Shown one piece after another: positions 5,536 to 19,924 of a stretch of DNA of 64,000 nt. The first letter of the stretch is position 1. Each line of letters opens with the position of its first letter. The DNA comes from Accumulibacter sp. GTDB taxonomy: Bacteria > Pseudomonadota > Gammaproteobacteria > Burkholderiales > Rhodocyclaceae. The notes under the pieces were generated by a model that made no database searches, was not told the origin of the DNA, and saw only the letters and a list, made by a program, of their open reading frames with translations. The stretch spans positions 1-64,000 of the forward strand of contig JAIFKU010000035.1 in the NCBI GenBank assembly GCA_020049495.1. Direction: 5' to 3'. Both the position numbers and the translations under genes were made by a program.

Positions 5536-5643
5536 TCGTCACCCCGGCGAATGCGCCCAGCAGGAAGTGCCCTTGGGATGCCGGGGTCCAAGAGGTAAAT
5601 CCATGCCAGCACTAGATACCGGCCTTCGCCGGTATGACGGAAG
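5536..5643. repeat. Dispersed palindromic repeat (gtcaccccggcgaa ... ccggccttcgccggtatgacgg)
   Basis: Shares the gtcaccccggcgaa(t/a)gcg...ggaagtgc unit with 17621-17735; terminal ccggccttcgccgg hairpin. Confidence 0.65.
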
Positions 5644-9213: not shown

Positions 9214-9242
9214 ACAAAAAACGGGGCGGTCAGGCCGCCCCG
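9214..9242 (-). terminator. Rho-independent terminator of the PFOR operon
   Basis: Perfect 8-bp stem CGGGGCGG-TCAGG-CCGCCCCG (9222-9242) followed on the minus strand by TTTTTTG; 28 bp beyond the stop at 9270. Confidence 0.88.
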
Positions 9243-9269
9243 TCATTAGCTCGAAGTTTCCGTTGCCGT

Positions 9270-12116
9270 TCAGGTCAGACCGTGCTTGACCTTGCTCGCC
9301 TGTTCCTGCGGTTTGAACTGGTTGAAGCGTGGCAGGAATTTGTCCCAGTCGATCATATGGCTATCGAGTTCCGGACCGTCGACGCAGGCGTGCTTGCGCA
9401 CCATCTTGCCGTCGATGGTCACCGGCACCATGCAGGCGCCGCACATGCCGGTGGCGTCGACCATGATCGAGTTCAGGCTGGCCACCGTCTTGACGCCGTA
9501 GGGCTTGGTGAGGTCGCTCACCGCACGCATCATCAGCGGCGGACCGATGGTCACCACTTCGGCGATTTCACGGCCTTTGTTCTTCTTGCCGTTCTTCAGC
9601 ATTTCTTCGAGCGGGCCGGTGACGAAGCCCTTGACGCCGAAGGTGCCGTCGTTGCTGGTGTAGATGATGTCGAGCTGGTCGCCGAACTCGGCTTTGAGCT
9701 TGCCGACGCGTTCGTCATCCTTGGTCCAGAAAAGCAGGTTGGCGCTGCGGAAACCGGAGATCAAGGTGACGTGATTGCCCTGACGCAGGTGTTCACGCAT
9801 GATCGGATAGACCGGCGGCAGACCGACGCCGCCGGCGGTGAACACCACCGTCTGCTTCTTGGCATCGTAGTGATGCAGTTCACTCGGCAAGCCGAGCGGT
9901 CCGGCAATGCCGGCAAACGACTCGCCAACCTTCATCTGGTTCATCTCGATACTGCTGGTGCCCATGCCTTGAATGACGAGGCAGATGGTGCCGGCCTTGG
10001 CATCCCAGTCGGCCAGCGTCAGCGGAATCAGCTCTCCGTTCGGCCAGCCGAGCACACGCACGAACTGACCGGCACGCGCGGCGCTGGCGACCAGCGGCGA
10101 ATGCACGATGAACTCGACGATGCCACCGGCCAGTTCGATCTTCTCGAGGATGGTCTGCGGAGCCGCTCCGAGGTGGGTGTAATGCCCGGCGCTGGCGACC
10201 ATCTTGCGGACTTCTTCGGGCGACAGGTTCATGTCACCGACGATTTCACGCGCCGCCGCCTGGCCGTCACCGGCCGCACGGATGGCGGTTGAACCGCCGC
10301 GAGCGGCATCGCCACCGGAATAAACGCCGGCCAGCGAGGTCTGCTGCTTTGAACCCTGACCGACATCGATCGATCCCCACTTGGTCAACTTGAGCGTCGG
10401 CTCGGAATCCTTGATGATCGGGTTCGGCGTGTTGCCGAGGGCCATGATCACCAGATCGACCTTCATCGGCTCGATCTGGCCGGTGGACACCGGACTGCGA
10501 CGTCCGGAGGCATCGGGTTCGCCGAGGTCCATGACGTCGAGCATGGCGTGGGTGACAAAATTGGTCTTGTCGTCGCCGACAAATTCGCACGGCGCACGCA
10601 GGAACTTGAGCTGGATGCCTTCCTCGATGGCGTGGTGCAGTTCTTCGACACGCACCGGCATTTCGGCGCGCGTGCGGCGATAGACGATGGTGACGTTGCC
10701 GCCGAGGCGACGCGCGGTACGCGCCGAATCCATGGCGGTGTTGCCGGCGCCGATGACGATGACTTCCTTGCCGCGGGTTTCGGGCAGCGGTGTTTCGTAA
10801 TCTTCGCGCAGGCCCTGCATCAGGTTGACGCGGGTCAGGAACTCGTTGGCCGACATGACGTTGATCAGGTGCTCGCCGGGAACGTTCATGAAGCGCGGCA
10901 GGCCGGCGCCGGTTCCGACGAAGACCTTCCAGAAACCGGCATTCTTCAGATCCTGGATGGTCGCCGTCTTGCCGACGACGAAATTGGGCACGAACTTGCC
11001 ACCGAGCAGCTTGATCTTGCCGACCACGTCGTCGATCAGATCGTTGGGCAGACGGAACTCGGGAATACCGTAGCGTAATACGCCGCCGAGTGCATGGAAG
11101 GCTTCGAAGATGGTCACCGGGAAGCCTTCGGCAGCCAGCAGGTAGGCGTTGATCAGTCCGGCCGGGCCGGAACCGACGACCGCCACCGGCGGTTTTTCGG
11201 CTTTGGCCCACGGATCGGGGAAGCCGGCAAAACGCGCGGCGAGGCCTTCGGGATTGACCACCTTCTCGCGCTGCGGCAGAAACCATTCGATCTGGCCGAT
11301 TTCGATCGGCTGCTTGGTATGCGCGCAAACGCCCTGGCATTGCAGTTCCTGCGGACAGACGCGACCGGTGACATTGGGCAGCGGATTGCAGTTCTCGATC
11401 AGTTCCATGGCTTCGCGAAAGCGGCCGGTACCGAGCAGATTGAGCATTTCCGGAATGTGGATCTTGACCGGGCAACCGCCCTTCGGTTCGAACTTGCCGG
11501 CGACATGCACGCCGACTTCACAGGGACGCTCTTCACACTGCTTGTCGCGCAGCGCTTCGAGCCAGACGATGAGGTCCACTTCACGGGCGCTGTAGCCGAG
11601 GTTCATGTAGCCGAGGTAGCCCTGGTTCACCAGACCGAAGTCTTTTGAACGCTCTTCCGGGTCGCGGATGTACGGCGGAATGTAGTTGTCGGCCGGCCAG
11701 TCTTCCGACAGGCCCTTGAACATCGGGTAGCGTTCCGACAGGTTAAGGTCAATGGCGCGAATGAACTTGCGCTTGAGCCCGAGCGGCACGTTCCAGACAA
11801 AGCGCATCAGCACCTTGCTGGTATCGTCGTCGCGCAGCAGCAGATCCCAGAACGTTTTTACAAACTCCGGACTGAGTTCGGGCTGCTTGAATTCCCAGAC
11901 GATGGCGTTGGTACCGTCGGCAATGAACATGTCGCGGAAGGCCTGCGGCTCTTTCAACAAGCGGCGCTGCAGCAGCGCCATCTGGTTGTGAAAGTCCTCG
12001 ACCGCAGCGGACTGTTCCAGGGCTTCGAGCTGTGACCGCGTACTCTCCAGCGTCGTGCTGGCGTTCAGGTAGCGGTACAGATCGTCCTGGTTGGAGGGTG
12101 TAGCTTCTGCACTCAT
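9270..12116 (-). CDS. Fused GltD/NfnB-like NAD(P)-FAD oxidoreductase + PyrK/NfnA-like ferredoxin-NAD(P) reductase
   Basis: Start ATG 12116 (MSAEATPSNQDD; ORF track starts 12137). Contains the GltD-type N-terminal Cys cluster (CNPLPNVTGRVCPQELQCQGVC), VAVVGSGPAGLINAYLLAAEGFPVTIFEA, VIVIGAGNTAMDSARTARRLGG, and a C-terminal PyrK/SudB-like FNR region with SIMVDATGMCGACMV. Confidence 0.85.
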   Translation of the reverse strand: MSAEATPSNQDDLYRYLNASTTLESTRSQLEALEQSAAVEDFHNQMALLQRRLLKEPQAFRDMFIADGTNAIVWEFKQPELSPEFVKTFWDLLLRDDDTSKVLMRFVWNVPLGLKRKFIRAIDLNLSERYPMFKGLSEDWPADNYIPPYIRDPEERSKDFGLVNQGYLGYMNLGYSAREVDLIVWLEALRDKQCEERPCEVGVHVAGKFEPKGGCPVKIHIPEMLNLLGTGRFREAMELIENCNPLPNVTGRVCPQELQCQGVCAHTKQPIEIGQIEWFLPQREKVVNPEGLAARFAGFPDPWAKAEKPPVAVVGSGPAGLINAYLLAAEGFPVTIFEAFHALGGVLRYGIPEFRLPNDLIDDVVGKIKLLGGKFVPNFVVGKTATIQDLKNAGFWKVFVGTGAGLPRFMNVPGEHLINVMSANEFLTRVNLMQGLREDYETPLPETRGKEVIVIGAGNTAMDSARTARRLGGNVTIVYRRTRAEMPVRVEELHHAIEEGIQLKFLRAPCEFVGDDKTNFVTHAMLDVMDLGEPDASGRRSPVSTGQIEPMKVDLVIMALGNTPNPIIKDSEPTLKLTKWGSIDVGQGSKQQTSLAGVYSGGDAARGGSTAIRAAGDGQAAAREIVGDMNLSPEEVRKMVASAGHYTHLGAAPQTILEKIELAGGIVEFIVHSPLVASAARAGQFVRVLGWPNGELIPLTLADWDAKAGTICLVIQGMGTSSIEMNQMKVGESFAGIAGPLGLPSELHHYDAKKQTVVFTAGGVGLPPVYPIMREHLRQGNHVTLISGFRSANLLFWTKDDERVGKLKAEFGDQLDIIYTSNDGTFGVKGFVTGPLEEMLKNGKKNKGREIAEVVTIGPPLMMRAVSDLTKPYGVKTVASLNSIMVDATGMCGACMVPVTIDGKMVRKHACVDGPELDSHMIDWDKFLPRFNQFKPQEQASKVKHGLT

Positions 12117-15100
12117 CGAATGATCTCCGCATCGCAATTCGCCGAAACCCGCTTGATGCGGGCCTTCAGCTCGGGTGTAACGGTAACGCGCTCAAGGGCA
12201 CCAGGTATCAGCTGCCCGACTTCCCTGCTTTCGCCATTGACTACGATCCGGGTTTTCTCGAACAGTTCCGAGAGATCCTGATAACAGGTCTTGCAGTTGG
12301 TGCACTTCACCTGATCGGCGACATCGTAGGTTACCAGAGCTTCACCGCTAGCCGCAGGGGCGCTGGCTGCGGCAGCAGGCGCTGCCGCCGACGTACCGAC
12401 CGACATGATCGGAATCACGGTACCGTTGCCGACCTGCGCCTTGCTTGATGCCGCGAGTTCCGACATGGCGCGGGCGAAGCCGTCGAGCGAGGAGTCACGC
12501 TGCTTAACGGACGCATCAACCTGCGCTTGCAGGGCGGCGAGACCGACGCGATATTCGGTGCTCATCTTGGAGACGTGCTGACCGTCAAGATACTGCAGCA
12601 GGTTCCAGTACTTGCGGCGCTCTTCGACCAGCGCGACGATGGCGCTGGAAACGCCCACCTTGAGCAAACGCTTCTTGCTGTCGGTAGAGTAGACGAAAGG
12701 CGTCTTGCCCAGACGTTGCGCTTCAGTCAGGTCGATGAATTCCTCGACTGGAACGAGGTTGGCCGCGTCGGCGGTAAGCTTCTTGAACTGCTTCTTGAAG
12801 CGGATTTCGCCGAGCGCGAAGTGCGCCGGAGTCAGCGCCATATTTTTCAGCTGCAGCTTGCCGTCGTCGTCGAGGTATTCGAGCGCGGTCGTCGTCCACA
12901 CTTTTTCCGGATCGGGATTGCCTTCGAGCGAGAACCAGTCGTGCAGGTTCTTGCCACGCCGCGGGTCATGTACGAATACCGGGTTCATGCGGCTTTCGAC
13001 AGCCAGACGCGACTGGCGTGCCGAGATGTTGTCGGCAATGCCGTGCTCGCCCTGGCAGGGCGTATAGACGTCGAGAACCGCCGGTGAATCGGTGTAGGTG
13101 AGGAATTCCATGGTGTTCTTGAGGAAGTGGTTCTGCAGCGCAGTGCTGGTCGAACACACAAACACGTTGGAATGGAAGGACGCAATCAGGCCGAGTTCCT
13201 TGCGCGCCTCGTGCTTGCCGCTGTGCGCGGCGCCGAAACGTGCGAGGTCGGAATCCTGGCCGATGAAGCTCGACGTCGAGGCCTGACCACCGGTGTTGGA
13301 ATAGGCGCCGGTGTTGAGTACCATGACCTTGATCGGCGTATCGCTGGCCAGGATGCGCGACAGCGCACCGAAGCCGATATCGTAGGTGGCGCCGTCGCCG
13401 CCGATGGTCATCACCGTCGGCAGCAGGCCGAGTTCATTCTTGCTGAACTGGCTCCACGACAGCATGCGCAGTTCCTGATCGTGTTTCTCGGGAATGTAGG
13501 CATCGTCGAGTTCAAGACGGGCGATGCGCAGGGCGCGCACGTCGGCAACGGTTTGCGCCGAGATGCCTTCGAAGATGCCCTTGGCCAGCGGCTGGGCATC
13601 CTGGAACAGGCTGTTGACCCACGGATCGTTGTAGGCGTTGAACGGGAAGGTCGACGCATAGACGCTGCTGCAACCCGTGGAGTTGGCGATCACGGTGCCG
13701 GAAGGGCCATTGCCGGTCGGGCCGCCTTCGTAGAGGTAGAGGCGTTTTTCCAGCGTGGCGATGAGACCGGCGATACGCTGGTTGCGTGCGCTTTCCTTCT
13801 TCGACAGCGAAGCCTGCTTAGCAGTGAGGGCGCCGATCAGGCTTTCCAGATCGACCATGTGATCCTGACGGCGCTTTTCGCTGATGGCGTGGCTGGTGGC
13901 CATCACCAGACGGATCGCCGTCACTTCGCCGCAACCACGGCAACCGCCGTGACCACCGGTAGTCGAGTAGTAGTTGGCACGGTCGAGCAGCAGGCGCTTG
14001 ATTTCGCCGCCAGCTTCGATCGCCCCATCAACAAAGCGCGCCGGGGTGTTCGGCGTCTTGCTCATGAACTCGAAGCGATCCTGCAGGCCACTCAGGACAG
14101 TGGCGTCCTGTTCGCGTGCAGTCAGTGCGCCGGGGCCACAAACGTCGAGACACTCAAGGCAGCCGGTACACTTCCACGGATCGATATTGACGCCGAACAG
14201 GCCGCCACTTCCCGCCGTAGCTTTCTCCATGGCGTCGAAGAACGGACGCGTCCTGGCCACCGGGTAGGCCGCCAGCACATCGACGAGCTTGCTGAAGTTG
14301 CCAAGCAGGGTTGCCTGTTTGGTCGGGATCTTCGCGGCGGCTTCGGCCACGAGTTCGTGGAAGGCACGCGCTTCCTTACTCTGGCGGTACGCCTCGCGCA
14401 CTGCGTCGGCAACGGCATAGACCTGGGCACGCATGGCTTCGCGCTGGGCTTCGCCGATGTCGAGCTTGATGATGCCGGTCAGCAGCAGCTCATGGATGTC
14501 ATGCACGGTATTCGGGATGGCCGCATCCGGACAGACCAGAGCACATTCCATGCAACCGGTACACAGATCAGGATTGAAGATCGGCACGGTGCGGCGGAAA
14601 ACCCCCTTGTCCTTCGAACCCGCTGATCCGGCCGGCATGAACAGGCCGGTACCCGGCAGTACCGGCGCTTCGGCAATGGTGCCCTCACGGAAAGGCTTGG
14701 CCACCATGTCGTCGAAATATTCGCGGTCGAACATGCCGCCGCAGCCGGACGAACCGGAGGACTGGCACATTGAAGCCGACAGTGAAACATTGCGCAGCGC
14801 AATCGGCGCCGGCCTGGCGTCGATCTTGGCAAACCCCGCCGTGTTGTAATCGACCTTGCACGCCGCCTCAACACCTTCGCGGATTACCGCCATATTGCCT
14901 TCGACAACCGCACCGCCTTTGCTGCCGAATTTCTTGGCAATCTGCTTCTGAATTTTCTCAAGGATCACCTTGGCTGATGCGCCGGCAGAAACCTGGGGGA
15001 CGTGTGCAGCCACGGCGCCAATGAAGGCGATGCCCATCATGCGCGTGGCCAGTTCCGGCGTCGGCGCGTTTCTCTTGGCGACGGCAAAGGCATCGATGAT

Positions 15101-17107
15101 GAAGAAGTTGATCTTCTTCTCGCGAATGGTCTTTCTCGCCTGCGCCGGCAGTTCCTGCCAGACTTCTTCGGCCGAGTTCGAGGATTGCATGATGAAGGTA
15201 CCGCCGGCGACCAGGCCACGCAGCGGATTGGTGTGGCTGAATACCTTGTGATCCGGGGAGATGACGACCTCGACATCCTCGAGTTCGGCGTTGGTGATCT
15301 TGATCGCTTCCGGACTCAGCGTGATGTAGTAGTTGGTCGGTGCGCCACTCTTCTCGGAGCCGTATTTCGGCGCCGACTTCGAATGCATTTCGAGTACGCC
15401 GGCGAGAATGTCGGTCAGCAGCTTGCCCGAGGCGATGGTGCCGTAACCGCCCACCGAGTGGAAACGGACACGGAAGGCGTTATCCGGCAGCAACCTTGGA
15501 TTATCGCCGGTTTCCAGCGCCATCAGTTCGGTCTCGGGATAAGCGGCCTTCAGGCGTTTCTGCAGTTCGGCAACGCGCGGTGTCGGGTTCTTCGAGAAAA
15601 ACTGCGAACCGAGATAGATCAGCGGCGCGCCCTGGCCGCTTTCCATGTTCTTGAAGGCGGCAATCAGGTGGCGCGGTTGCAGGTCGTGACCACCGAGACC
15701 GAAGATCGCCGTGGTCAGTTTGGGCATCAGCTTGATCGCCGGAATGCCGGCATGGCGCAGTTGGTCGGCGTTTTCGCGCGCCTTGAACAGCGCCTGGGTG
15801 ACCAGGCTGGTGAGTGCGGTCTGGTCGGAACGTTCGAGCACGGTAACCGCCTTCTTGCCCTTCAGCGCCTCGACCAGTTCGGCTTCGGGGAAGGGTTGCA
15901 ACAGCTTGACCGAGACCAGGCCGACTTTCTTGCCCTTGCTGCGCAGGTAGGTCACCACGGCTTCAACGTCGTCGGTGACCGAACCGAGGCCGACCATGAC
16001 GGTGTCGGCGTCGTCGCACATGAAGGTATGCACCGGCGAGTACGTGCGGCCAGTCAGTTCGGAATACTCGGACATGGCCTGGCGCACCAGTGCGGGAACC
16101 GCGCTGACAAAGTGCGTGCGGTGGTCGGCCGATCCGGCCTGGAAGTCGGGCTGGTTCTGGACCGGGCCGGTGAGACCGGGATTATTGACGTCGACCTGCG
16201 CCGGCACCAATTGGCGCGTGCCTTTTTCAAAGGCATTGATCCACTGGCGCTTCCACTGGCCGTGCAGTTCTTCGGGCAGCCAGCCCAGGGTCTTGGCCAC
16301 CAGCGCGCCTTCGTTGTCCTTCTCGACCTTGGCGGCGTTGGCTTCGAGATATTTCTGCAGGGCCGCAAGATTGCCTTCGACAAGGTCGGTCTCGTGGCGC
16401 GACAGGTACTGATTGAGCTGGAATACGCGCCCCTTGGAACCAAACAACATTTCCTGTGCCAGAGTCGGTGCCTTGATGCGTCCGGCGGGATCACCGAGGT
16501 ACTCACGCAGCAGCTCGGGTTCGGGCATCAGCGCTTCGCTCATCATATGACTGGTGGAAAAGCCGTCCATGGCATTGGCCACGGGAATCAGCGAGAGCGA
16601 GGACGCGCGATAGGCGATCGCCGCCAGGTCAGCCGCTTCCTGCGGATTGGAGCCGAACAGGATAGTGTAGCCCGAGGAGAGCAGGGCATAGACGTCGTCG
16701 TGACCGGCCATGACGTTGAGCGAGTGCTTGGAGACGACACGCGCCGCAACCTGCAGAACGAAGCCGCCGACCTTCTTGCCGACGGTAACATAATGTGATT
16801 CGAGGGCGTACAGAATGCCCTGGCTTGACGAGGCGTTAGAAATGAACTGGCCGCCAGTCAACTGCGCACCGAGCGCACCGCTCTGTGCCGAATGTTCGCC
16901 TTCCGGTTCGAAGAAAAACGGGTGCTTGCCCCAGACATTGACACCGCCTTCGGAACGGAAGGCCTCGTAGATTTCAGCGATCTCGGTAGACGGGGTAATC
17001 GGGTAGCCGATGACGCCGCCGCAGACGTTGCTCATGACATGAGCTACTGCGCCATTGCCGTGAATGACGCTGGGAAGGCCTGGATATTTCGCTTTCTTAA
17101 CTTTCAT
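12113..17107 (-). CDS. Pyruvate:ferredoxin (flavodoxin) oxidoreductase, single chain, with a long C-terminal Cys-containing extension (1664 aa)
   Basis: YPITPSTEIAEIYE, 2x[4Fe-4S] CTGCMECALVCP and CTGCLECLDVC, GCRGCGE, ANSTGCSSVYASTFPFNAYNDPW, GGDGATYDIGFGALSRILASDTPIKVMVLNTGAYSNTGGQ; extra C-terminal CTNCKTCYQD. Confidence 0.9.
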   Translation of the reverse strand: MKVKKAKYPGLPSVIHGNGAVAHVMSNVCGGVIGYPITPSTEIAEIYEAFRSEGGVNVWGKHPFFFEPEGEHSAQSGALGAQLTGGQFISNASSSQGILYALESHYVTVGKKVGGFVLQVAARVVSKHSLNVMAGHDDVYALLSSGYTILFGSNPQEAADLAAIAYRASSLSLIPVANAMDGFSTSHMMSEALMPEPELLREYLGDPAGRIKAPTLAQEMLFGSKGRVFQLNQYLSRHETDLVEGNLAALQKYLEANAAKVEKDNEGALVAKTLGWLPEELHGQWKRQWINAFEKGTRQLVPAQVDVNNPGLTGPVQNQPDFQAGSADHRTHFVSAVPALVRQAMSEYSELTGRTYSPVHTFMCDDADTVMVGLGSVTDDVEAVVTYLRSKGKKVGLVSVKLLQPFPEAELVEALKGKKAVTVLERSDQTALTSLVTQALFKARENADQLRHAGIPAIKLMPKLTTAIFGLGGHDLQPRHLIAAFKNMESGQGAPLIYLGSQFFSKNPTPRVAELQKRLKAAYPETELMALETGDNPRLLPDNAFRVRFHSVGGYGTIASGKLLTDILAGVLEMHSKSAPKYGSEKSGAPTNYYITLSPEAIKITNAELEDVEVVISPDHKVFSHTNPLRGLVAGGTFIMQSSNSAEEVWQELPAQARKTIREKKINFFIIDAFAVAKRNAPTPELATRMMGIAFIGAVAAHVPQVSAGASAKVILEKIQKQIAKKFGSKGGAVVEGNMAVIREGVEAACKVDYNTAGFAKIDARPAPIALRNVSLSASMCQSSGSSGCGGMFDREYFDDMVAKPFREGTIAEAPVLPGTGLFMPAGSAGSKDKGVFRRTVPIFNPDLCTGCMECALVCPDAAIPNTVHDIHELLLTGIIKLDIGEAQREAMRAQVYAVADAVREAYRQSKEARAFHELVAEAAAKIPTKQATLLGNFSKLVDVLAAYPVARTRPFFDAMEKATAGSGGLFGVNIDPWKCTGCLECLDVCGPGALTAREQDATVLSGLQDRFEFMSKTPNTPARFVDGAIEAGGEIKRLLLDRANYYSTTGGHGGCRGCGEVTAIRLVMATSHAISEKRRQDHMVDLESLIGALTAKQASLSKKESARNQRIAGLIATLEKRLYLYEGGPTGNGPSGTVIANSTGCSSVYASTFPFNAYNDPWVNSLFQDAQPLAKGIFEGISAQTVADVRALRIARLELDDAYIPEKHDQELRMLSWSQFSKNELGLLPTVMTIGGDGATYDIGFGALSRILASDTPIKVMVLNTGAYSNTGGQASTSSFIGQDSDLARFGAAHSGKHEARKELGLIASFHSNVFVCSTSTALQNHFLKNTMEFLTYTDSPAVLDVYTPCQGEHGIADNISARQSRLAVESRMNPVFVHDPRRGKNLHDWFSLEGNPDPEKVWTTTALEYLDDDGKLQLKNMALTPAHFALGEIRFKKQFKKLTADAANLVPVEEFIDLTEAQRLGKTPFVYSTDSKKRLLKVGVSSAIVALVEERRKYWNLLQYLDGQHVSKMSTEYRVGLAALQAQVDASVKQRDSSLDGFARAMSELAASSKAQVGNGTVIPIMSVGTSAAAPAAAASAPAASGEALVTYDVADQVKCTNCKTCYQDLSELFEKTRIVVNGESREVGQLIPGALERVTVTPELKARIKRVSANCDAEIIR

Positions 17108-17620
17108 GATGACGTGTCCGAAGTATGGATGGGAAATTCAACCGCACGCGCACAGGTGCGCCGGTCCGCTTTGAAAGAAAACCTGGGAAGATCTGGGCAT
17201 TTCGCGCTCTGCCTCAAGCAGGGCAATCGACGGCATTGCCACCGCTTTCACGCCCCGGCCGCATCGGCCGCAAATACTTGCCTCGATCATATGCTCTCCG
17301 CGTTGAGGATTCAGGAAACTGCCCAGTGGCGTCACCTGTTGTGACGTGACGGAACAGAAAGCTGCTTCCCCGGAACTAACTATTTTACCAACTTTCGTTG
17401 CACAGAATGAGATGATGTTTCAAAAATTATCATCGGGTAGCAAACGCTCGTTTGACTGATGCGTGAAAGAAAGCGCCACAAACACAGCGTCAGGCCGACG
17501 CCGTGAAGATTCCAGGCCATCCGGGGCGTTACCCGCAGCACGCAGGCTTCAGCGTGACGGCACATGGCGCAAGGAATATCAGCGCGGGTCGGAGATTTCT
17601 AAGAAAAGGCCGATTTATTC

Positions 17621-17735
17621 GTCACCCCGGCGAAAGCGACCGAAGGAAGTGCAGAGCCCGGGGGCCAGTTCGTTGATTCTTCTGGATTCCGGCACCCCAA
17701 GGGTACTTCCTTCGGGGCGCTTTCGCCGGAATGAC
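17621..17735. repeat. MITE-like long imperfect inverted repeat
   Basis: gtcaccccggcgaaagcgaccgaaggaagt at the left end versus the reverse complement of acttccttcggggcgctttcgccggaatgac at the right end (arms about 30 bp, spacer about 55 bp). Confidence 0.8.
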
Positions 17736-17760: not shown

Positions 17761-18897
17761 CTAAACGACTTCGAGGTGACCGATACCCGAATTCAGGTCG
17801 CGGTCCTTCGACTCCTTGCCGTGCAGTTTGATCTGCAGGCGCAGGTCGTTGAGCGAGTCGGCATTGCGCAAGGCATCTTCGTAGGTGATGCGGCCGGCCT
17901 CATAATGTTCGAACAGACCCTGGTCGAAGGTCTGCATGCCGAGTTCGCGCGACTTTTTCATGATTTCCTTGATCTCCTGTACCTCACCCTTGAAGATGAG
18001 ATCCGAGATCAGTGGCGAGTTGAGCATGATTTCAATCGCCGCCACCCGGCCCTTGCCGTCCTTTTTCGGCAGCAGGCGCTGCGAGACAATCGCCCGCAGG
18101 TTGAGCGAGAGATCCATCAGCAACTGGTGACGGCGATCTTCCGGGAAAAAATTTATGATCCGGTCGATGGCCTGATTGGTGCTGTTGGCATGCAGGGTAG
18201 CAAGACAGAGGTGGCCGGTTTCGGCAAAGGCCACCGCGTGATCCATCGTTTCACGGTCGCGGACTTCGCCCATCAGAATGACATCGGGGGCCTGACGCAG
18301 CGTGTTTTTCAGTGCGGCTTCCCAGGAATCGGTATCGACGCCGATTTCGCGTTGCGTGACGATACAGCCTTTGTGATCGTGAATGAATTCGATCGGATCC
18401 TCGATGGTGATGATGTGGCCGTGACTGTTCTTGTTGCGGTGATCGACCAGCGCCGCCAGCGAGGTGGTTTTTCCTGTTCCCGTGCCGCCGACAAAGATGA
18501 CCAGTCCGCGTTTGGTCATGGCAATATCCTTCAGGACGGTCGGCAGGCCGAGTTCATCCAGAGTCGGTATCGACATGTTGATCGTCCGGCAGACAACCGC
18601 TACCCGCCCCTGCTGGATCAGGGCATTGACCCGGAAGCGGCCGATCCCCGAAGGCGAAATGGCGAAGTTGCATTCCTTGGTCGTCTCGAACTCTGCCGCC
18701 TGCCGGTCGTTCATGATCGAACGCGCCAGCTCGGACGTATGCTGCGGGTTCAGTACCTGGTTGGACACCGGCGTGATCCGGCCATCGACCTTGATGGCCG
18801 GTGGGAAATTCGCGGTGATGAAGAGGTCCGAGCCATTTTTCTGCGCCATCAGGCGCAGAATGTCGTGCATGAATTTTAGAGCCTGATCGCGTTCCAT
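17761..18897 (-). CDS. pilU: Type IV pilus retraction ATPase PilU
   Basis: GGTGTGKTTSLAALVDHRN, HIITIEDPIEFIHDHKGCIVTQREIGVDT, VILMGEVRDRETMDHAVAFAETGHLCLATLHAN. Confidence 0.92.
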   Translation of the reverse strand: MERDQALKFMHDILRLMAQKNGSDLFITANFPPAIKVDGRITPVSNQVLNPQHTSELARSIMNDRQAAEFETTKECNFAISPSGIGRFRVNALIQQGRVAVVCRTINMSIPTLDELGLPTVLKDIAMTKRGLVIFVGGTGTGKTTSLAALVDHRNKNSHGHIITIEDPIEFIHDHKGCIVTQREIGVDTDSWEAALKNTLRQAPDVILMGEVRDRETMDHAVAFAETGHLCLATLHANSTNQAIDRIINFFPEDRRHQLLMDLSLNLRAIVSQRLLPKKDGKGRVAAIEIMLNSPLISDLIFKGEVQEIKEIMKKSRELGMQTFDQGLFEHYEAGRITYEDALRNADSLNDLRLQIKLHGKESKDRDLNSGIGHLEVV

Positions 18898-18920
18898 ATT
18901 TTCCTCTCAGTCCCCAGGCA

Positions 18921-19924
18921 CTACGCTCCCGGGAAAGTATCCTTGTTGGCACCAGCTCAAGAAGGTTCTGATCCAGGGTCTGCATGCCCAGTTGTGCACC
19001 CGTCTGGATGGCAGAATACATCTGGGCCACCTTGTTTTCACGGATCAGGTTGCGAATCGCCGGCGTGCCGATCATGATTTCGTGCGCCGCCGTTCGCCCC
19101 GTACCATCCTTGGTCTTGAGCAGCGTTTGCGAAATCACCGCGCGCAGCGATTCGGAAAGCATCGAGCGAACCATTTCCTTCTCGGCCGCAGGGAAGACGT
19201 CAACGATACGGTCGATCGTCTTGGCGGCGCTCGAGGTGTGCAAGGTACCAAAGACCAGGTGGCCGGTTTCGGCACCGGAAAGCGCCAGGCGAATGGTTTC
19301 CAGATCGCGCATTTCGCCGACCAGAATAACGTCAGGGTCCTCGCGCAGCGCCGAGCGCAGCGCGTTGGCAAAAGACAGCGTGTGCGGACCGACTTCGCGC
19401 TGGTTGATCAGGCACTTCTTGGATTCGTGCACGAACTCGATCGGATCCTCGACGGTCAGAATGTGTCCATGATCGTTCTCGTTGACATGATTGACCATCG
19501 CCGCCAGTGTCGTCGATTTGCCCGAACCGGTCGGACCGGTAACCAGCACGATGCCACGCGGATACTCGGCAATATCCTTGAATATTTTCGGGCAATTCAG
19601 ATCTTCGAGCGTCAGCACCTTGGAAGGAATGGTCCGGAAAACCGCTGCGGCGCCACGATTCTGGACGAAGGCATTAACCCGGAAGCGCGCCAGATTGGGG
19701 ATTTCGAAAGAGAAATCGCACTCCAGATTCTCTTCGTAGTGCTTGCGCTGCCCGTCGTTCATGATGTCATAGACCATTGAATGCACGTCCTTGTGCTCCA
19801 TGGCCGGCAGGTTGATGCGGCGGACATCGCCATGCACCCGGATCATCGGCGGCAGACCCGAAGACAGGTGAAGGTCGGATGCCTTGTTCTTGACACTAAA
19901 GGCCAGCAGTTCGGTGATATCCAT
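18921..19924 (-). pseudogene. pilT: Type IV pilus retraction ATPase PilT with a C-terminal deletion/frameshift
   Basis: MDITELLAFSVKNKASDLHLSSGLPP...GPTGSGKSTTLAAMVNHVNE...AIRNLIRENKVAQMYSAIQTG is intact. After MQTLDQNLLELV the frame is lost; another frame supplies ANKDTFPGA-stop (stop at 18921-18923). The ORF track reads out of frame through pilU to 18554. Confidence 0.88.

Follow-up and report, generated by a model that had tools for sequence, protein, structure and literature searches.

A pyruvate:ferredoxin oxidoreductase with a tethered ferredoxin, paired with a fused Nfn: a candidate two-protein pyruvate:NAD(P)+ oxidoreductase in Accumulibacter and other bacteria

When pyruvate is oxidized by a pyruvate:ferredoxin oxidoreductase (PFOR) encoded directly beside an Nfn enzyme, do the electrons enter the free ferredoxin pool, or do they pass straight on to NAD(P)? 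The question is raised by two genes of Accumulibacter sp. (assembly GCA_020049495.1, contig JAIFKU010000035.1, positions 1 to 64,000; this 64,000-nucleotide stretch is called the window), a wastewater phosphate accumulator for which there is no consensus on the source of anaerobic reducing power (PMC12604563). An earlier note on this DNA had proposed a 1664-residue single-chain PFOR, an overlapping NfnB-NfnA-like fusion and no separate ferredoxin gene. The PFOR was borne out (open reading frame 17107-12113, minus strand, with domains I, II and III, a 2[4Fe-4S] region and a thiamine diphosphate (ThDP) domain), as was the 4-bp ATGA in which the Nfn start exactly overlaps the PFOR stop, and the fusion stands too, at 948 residues and not 949, the stop having been counted. 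Nor did we find a separate ferredoxin gene beside the pair among the neighbouring genes in the window; what had been overlooked is a ferredoxin domain at the C-terminus of the PFOR itself (12316-12116). The Nfn is of the type called pattern C, with NfnB-NfnA order, ~200 amino acids longer than the Clostridium-type fusion and present in Actinobacteria and Proteobacteria (Liang et al., 2019, PMC6405883). Judging by the domain anatomy of PFOR and Nfn and by their conservation as a pair, electrons from pyruvate probably reach NAD(P) through the two proteins with no free carrier in between. The features on which this turns are as follows.

12113-17107, minus strand: PFOR gene, 1664 amino acids in a single chain with four predicted [4Fe-4S] clusters, called from the open reading frame and its domains
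9270-12116, minus strand: pattern C fused Nfn gene, 948 amino acids, NCBIfam NF009415
12341-12439, minus strand: Ala/Gly/Pro linker, the proposed swinging arm, PFOR residues 1557-1589
12116-12316, minus strand: tethered single-[4Fe-4S] ferredoxin domain, PFOR residues 1598-1664, with C1602, C1605, C1608 and C1658

By sequence and structural model, the last ~70 residues of the PFOR form a ferredoxin domain with one predicted [4Fe-4S] cluster, held on a disordered linker. The tail matches Pfam Fer4_15 (27.4 bits, cut-off 22.4; 19.9 bits when queried alone), and the first two phmmer matches in the PDB are ferredoxins (E 0.003 and 0.007). In its CxxCxxC...C motif, C1602, C1605 and C1608 are present in 40/40 aligned full-length homologues and C1658 in 39/40, the exception being a distant lone PFOR in which the fourth cysteine is shifted. 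An AlphaFold model of residues 1395-1664 (52 sequences) had a predicted local distance difference test (pLDDT) score of 79, with ~75-85 in the tail and less than 50 at 1557-1589, and the two best of 350,542 PDB chains in a Foldseek search with the tail model were single-cluster [4Fe-4S] ferredoxins (prob 0.96-0.97; next matches <=0.14). Pfam family, motif and fold all indicate a ferredoxin domain, at modest E-values. The linker is 29-36 residues long in 49/50 homologues and 46 in the remaining one, 58% of it Ala, Gly and Pro, and its mean pairwise identity is 0.29 vs 0.57 for the ferredoxin domain that it carries; such retention of length but not of sequence is the signature of a flexible arm. 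The open-access literature searched yielded no account of a PFOR that ends in a ferredoxin domain. It is likely, from this anatomy, that the tethered ferredoxin carries electrons between PFOR and Nfn.

Do the two genes belong together? The earlier note had made the pairing hang on conserved adjacency in relatives; the check was run, and the pair is adjacent across two phyla. The PFOR and Nfn genes are neighbours at 26/26 evaluable betaproteobacterial loci, counting those whose contig reaches upstream, and in 8/8 genomes of a second proteobacterial class, all of one genus, where the PFOR is 58% and the Nfn 67% identical. Among the Propionibacteriaceae, pattern C Nfn was found in 62 of 198 sampled genomes, with a PFOR directly upstream at 41 of the 47 loci examined (G427 included), and nearly all of these PFORs have a matching ferredoxin tail; a sample of Actinomycetota had the Nfn in 1/397 genomes, so it appears concentrated in the Propionibacteriaceae. 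The commonest spacing between the genes is -4. Within the window's genus, 19 genomes divide into 13 with both genes, five with neither and one with a PFOR but no detected Nfn (at a contig end), a co-occurrence with Fisher p = 5e-4 when relatedness is ignored. The pairwise distance matrices of the two proteins are correlated at r = 0.98 (35 pairs, Mantel 0/2000). Conserved adjacency, joint gain and loss and this correlation support a coupling of PFOR and Nfn, and we consider it highly probable that they are a dedicated functional pair. Betaproteobacterial PFORs have a mean identity of 60% (up to 68%) to actinobacterial ones, vs 57% to the PFORs of the second proteobacterial class; this closeness suggests that the unit has been transferred between phyla. 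No natural fusion of PFOR and Nfn, sought by reading-frame length, occurred among the matches listed, and a search of plasmids gave no match.

The PFOR itself has the domains of its family, in a divergent form.

16472-17014, minus strand: PFOR domain I (POR_N, Pfam 2e-34), with YPITPST and the pyruvate-site arginine R123
14867-15451, minus strand: PFOR domain III (POR, gamma-like, Pfam 7.4e-26)
14138-14563, minus strand: medial and distal 2[4Fe-4S] motifs, C849/852/855/859 and C980/983/986/990, conserved in 40/40
13055-13942, minus strand: ThDP domain, with proximal-cluster C1056, C1059, C1146 and C1351, GDG and YSNTGGQ

One chain thus holds domains I, II and III, the 2[4Fe-4S] region and the ThDP domain. 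Of its 16 cluster cysteines, 15 are present in 40/40 aligned full-length homologues and one in 39/40, and none of the 40 departs from T38, R123 or the ThDP motif. Thr38 and Arg123 align with residues of the Desulfovibrio africanus PFOR that we take to form its pyruvate site. Against the TIGR02176 equivalog the protein scores 408.6 bits, below the curated cut-off of 911, which indicates a divergent PFOR subfamily and not the canonical ~1200-residue enzyme. Relative to the D. africanus enzyme, and reading the alignment by eye, it has ~100 extra residues between domains I and II, ~95 between the two ferredoxin motifs and ~60 in the ThDP half, besides the new C-terminus; two of the insertions had nothing significant in Pfam.

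The partner is likewise recognizable along its whole length.

11622-12116, minus strand: Nfn N-terminal extension of ~165 amino acids, predicted helical, of no known family
11286-11546, minus strand: NfnB N-terminal 2[4Fe-4S] region, with D191, C194, C199, C215, C254, C260, C264 and E277
10236-11195, minus strand: NfnB flavoprotein part with flavin adenine dinucleotide (FAD) and NADP(H) domains (Pfam Pyr_redox_2 3.9e-27; alignment to PfNfnI L and TmNfnB)
9342-10154, minus strand: NfnA part with FAD, NAD(H) and [2Fe-2S] sites (alignment to PfNfnI S; PF10418), with D887, C892, C895 and C911

It matches NF009415 over residues 6-947, its full length, at 1800 bits (cut-off 1519), and the large and small subunits of PfNfnI at E = 1.6e-104 and 5e-66. 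With NfnB followed by NfnA and about 950 residues, the window's Nfn (P0002) fits all the traits given for pattern C (PMC6405883); in the portion of that account available, no characterization is reported, and a PFOR partner, an aspartate ligand and a function do not feature. The ligands of two [4Fe-4S] clusters and one [2Fe-2S] cluster and both FAD domains are present, with one Cys-to-Asp change. The NfnB 2[4Fe-4S] ligands are invariant in 34/34 aligned homologues and 21/21 further ones, and D887, C892, C895 and C911 in 34/34. Classical NfnAB (Pyrococcus furiosus NfnI, 5jca; Thermotoga maritima, 4ylf) has the same cofactor sites, but it consists of two chains, has four cysteines at the first cluster motif, lacks the N-terminal extension and uses free ferredoxin. 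Where classical NfnB, including the copy in the window's genome, reads ESERCLMCPDQPCVAGCP, pattern C reads ALRDKQCEERPC...GGCP, the first cluster cysteine being an aspartate (D191) in the 34 aligned and the 21 further homologues. By homology with dihydropyrimidine dehydrogenase and Nfn, we assign this position to the outer cluster, the one facing ferredoxin, and D191 may be a lead, not a proof, on redox tuning of that cluster. The N-terminal extension had no match in Pfam or the PDB; it is helical in a low-confidence AlphaFold model of the whole Nfn (pLDDT 58, predicted template modelling score 0.47), and could possibly be a docking domain.

Put together, the two proteins would constitute a pyruvate:NAD(P)+ oxidoreductase. 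From family knowledge and the conserved residues, the PFOR would convert pyruvate and coenzyme A (CoA) to acetyl-CoA and CO2 and send the electrons along its three [4Fe-4S] clusters. The fourth cluster, on its ~33-residue arm, would take up the electrons from the distal cluster of the PFOR and swing to the partner, and the pattern C Nfn would receive them at its outer cluster, the Asp-substituted one. Least certain is the last step, in which Nfn may join the low-potential electrons of pyruvate with those of NADH and reduce NADP+: pyruvate + CoA + NADH + 2 NADP+ -> acetyl-CoA + CO2 + NAD+ + 2 NADPH + H+. Failing this, Nfn would act as a plain NAD(P)+ reductase. A dedicated coupling of PFOR and Nfn through the tethered ferredoxin, its stoichiometry left open, is on the sequence evidence favoured with fair confidence, whereas a stable complex of the two is an even call and confurcation by Nfn falls slightly short of even.

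The most durable alternative concerns this last step, and holds that the pair is a plain, non-bifurcating pyruvate:NADP+ (or NAD+) oxidoreductase using a single nucleotide. Its model is the pyruvate:NADP+ oxidoreductase (PNO) of Euglena and Cryptosporidium, one chain in which a PFOR is joined to a flavodoxin/cytochrome P450 reductase (CPR)-like domain. The earlier note had already compared the pair with the Euglena enzyme, a view that is supported in part, for the coupling of the two genes. As in PNO, the PFOR here brings its own electron module toward a nicotinamide nucleotide; unlike in PNO, this module is a ferredoxin domain and the Nfn is separate. Neither protein has a flavodoxin/CPR-type Pfam domain, so the likeness is functional. 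Besides the PNO precedent, the one-step logic of this alternative is in its favour, and bifurcating activity is not shown by all Nfn homologues (PMC9973337). Yet both FAD domains and both nucleotide domains are retained and the [2Fe-2S] ligands (Asp and three Cys) are invariant, which suggests that NADH may well be a second donor. We therefore regard the single-nucleotide enzyme as a real but minority possibility, and a conversion of pyruvate plus NADH to NADPH as no less likely than a simple reaction of the Euglena type.

A second alternative is that the two genes are co-expressed but that a free ferredoxin or flavodoxin shuttles electrons between their products, with the tethered domain as an internal exit and Nfn serving the whole pool. 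It draws on PFOR and Nfn genes that occur apart, which also weigh against a dedicated pairing. At six Propionibacteriaceae loci (L126, L129, L138, L139, L140 and L147) the Nfn has no adjacent PFOR, and in four such genomes (G895, G991, G861 and G965) no giant PFOR was found at E <= 1e-30, so that partnership is not obligatory for Nfn. These orphan Nfn proteins also carry D191, which is thus no marker of PFOR partnership; co-evolution of D191 with the PFOR was discarded on this ground. Conversely, another genus of the window's family (G299, L094:8237-13165) has a lone giant PFOR of 1642 residues, 35-41% identical, with the C-terminal ferredoxin domain and no such Nfn nearby, from which it follows that the domain did not evolve solely for an Nfn partner. 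Each part can thus exist alone, and the two genes go together as a strong rule with exceptions. Also counted against the favoured reading are a PFOR (locus L131) from which the beginning of the ferredoxin domain is missing, perhaps through an assembly error, and the weak Foldseek E-values (0.17 and 0.25) of the two ferredoxin matches, as might be expected from a multi-domain query model. Against exchange through a free carrier, adjacency is near-fixed and loss is joint across two phyla, and the free pool is already covered: the window's genome has a separate classical nfnA-nfnB pair with normal Cys ligands (G000:C68:7924-10191; L002, L004) and also Rnf, so the PFOR/Nfn pair need not serve free ferredoxin. 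The concern that electron transfer might require a free ferredoxin encoded elsewhere is largely answered by the built-in domain, and we consider exchange through a free carrier unlikely. Since the genome also has two aceE genes for pyruvate dehydrogenase E1 (G000:C120 and G000:C134), the pair is probably an alternative route for conditions of little or no oxygen; it looks like an insulated low-oxygen path parallel to the free-ferredoxin and aerobic ones. No rnfC match was obtained in the three Propionibacteriaceae tested, where Nfn would accordingly matter more.

Both PFOR and Nfn are reversible as families, and carriers of the pair are polyhydroxyalkanoate-storing or fermentative bacteria in which assimilation of acetyl-CoA could matter, so the module may run chiefly backwards and synthesize pyruvate, NADPH driving the reductive carboxylation of acetyl-CoA while NAD+ serves as the second acceptor. 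This we think improbable; the PFOR of P. acidipropionici, if it is the same enzyme, is up on sugar and tied to acetate production (PMC7650540). In that same work a PFOR-Nfn complex had already been put forward: a co-transcribed set of PFOR, NfnB-like and dihydroorotate dehydrogenase (DHOD)-like genes in propionibacteria was proposed to encode an electron-bifurcating complex, and disruption of nifJ1 severely crippled growth of Propionibacterium (McCubbin et al., 2020, PMC7650540). That proposal likewise pairs a PFOR with an NfnB-like protein, but, unlike the pair described here, invokes the DHOD-like protein as a third partner together with quinol oxidation; the part of the account available mentions neither a tethered ferredoxin nor an NfnA fusion, and its gene set may or may not include the present pair. 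Oxidation of quinol instead of NADH by the Nfn half, with pyruvate and quinol oxidation coupled to NAD(P)+ reduction as put forward for that cluster, is very improbable here, as it requires a DHOD-like protein, none of which was found beside the pair in a motif scan of 14 Propionibacteriaceae loci or a Pfam scan of the immediate neighbours in the window, and the NfnA half is a normal FAD/NAD/[2Fe-2S] unit.

Dedicated coupling of PFOR to Nfn also has more distant parallels. The phenylglyoxylate:NAD+ and 2-oxoglutarate:NADP+ oxidoreductases of Azoarcus are multi-subunit enzymes in which a 2-oxoacid oxidoreductase is joined to a flavoprotein with NAD(P)+ as acceptor; the coupling is alike, whereas the substrates and the multi-subunit build differ, and to our knowledge these enzymes have neither a full NfnAB nor a tethered ferredoxin. 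AadN of Rhodopseudomonas palustris is, like the protein described here, a fused Nfn, though of pattern B; it is tied to benzoyl-CoA reductase through free ferredoxin, and its role in a specific electron path was shown genetically (PMC9973337). The tethered ferredoxin, the NfnB-NfnA fusion as partner, the spread over two phyla and the Asp ligand are not described in the accessible literature.

The surroundings of the genes set them apart. The earlier note had recognized a terminator after the unit, at 9214-9242; a hairpin is indeed there, at slightly shifted coordinates.

9220-9244, minus strand: terminator-like hairpin of 10 pairs, 8 of them G-C, followed by TTTT, closing the two-gene unit

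On the 5' side of the PFOR, two PilT/PilU-type ATPase genes (17761-19924) lie on the same strand, with proC- and YggS/YggT-like genes beyond them on the opposite strand; none is obviously related, which leaves a two-gene unit. In the gap that separates the PFOR from the pilT/pilU-like genes, TCATTCCGGCGAAAGC occurs in inverted copies at 17622-17734, with 0 and 2 mismatches, and a third copy lies at 5622-5637 (three seen vs 0.07 expected); the repeat looks like a REP-type repeat or a small mobile element. Just 5' of the PFOR, an open reading frame of 50 amino acids (17138-17290, minus strand) has two CxxC/CxC pairs and a plausible ribosome site; it was not found in relatives and was rejected as part of the module.

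Should the pair work as proposed, pyruvate oxidation would feed its electrons straight into the NAD(P) pool, insulated from free ferredoxin. A PFOR with a swinging-arm ferredoxin, comparable to lipoyl arms, and a dedicated confurcating Nfn might then, on a tentative reading of the sequences, represent a new architecture for 2-oxoacid oxidation: a soluble, reversible machine making NADPH from pyruvate and NADH, and so also an NADPH-driven pyruvate synthase, spread between phyla as a two-gene unit. Pattern C Nfn, for which we found no assigned function, gains a testable partner and job, and the tethered ferredoxin offers a ready design for relaying low-potential electrons from one enzyme to another. 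Metabolic models of the carriers would be misled by annotating the PFOR as a source of free reduced ferredoxin. If true, the coupling would bear on how redox is balanced in propionic acid bacteria (PMC7650540) and on the anaerobic reducing power of Accumulibacter (PMC12604563).

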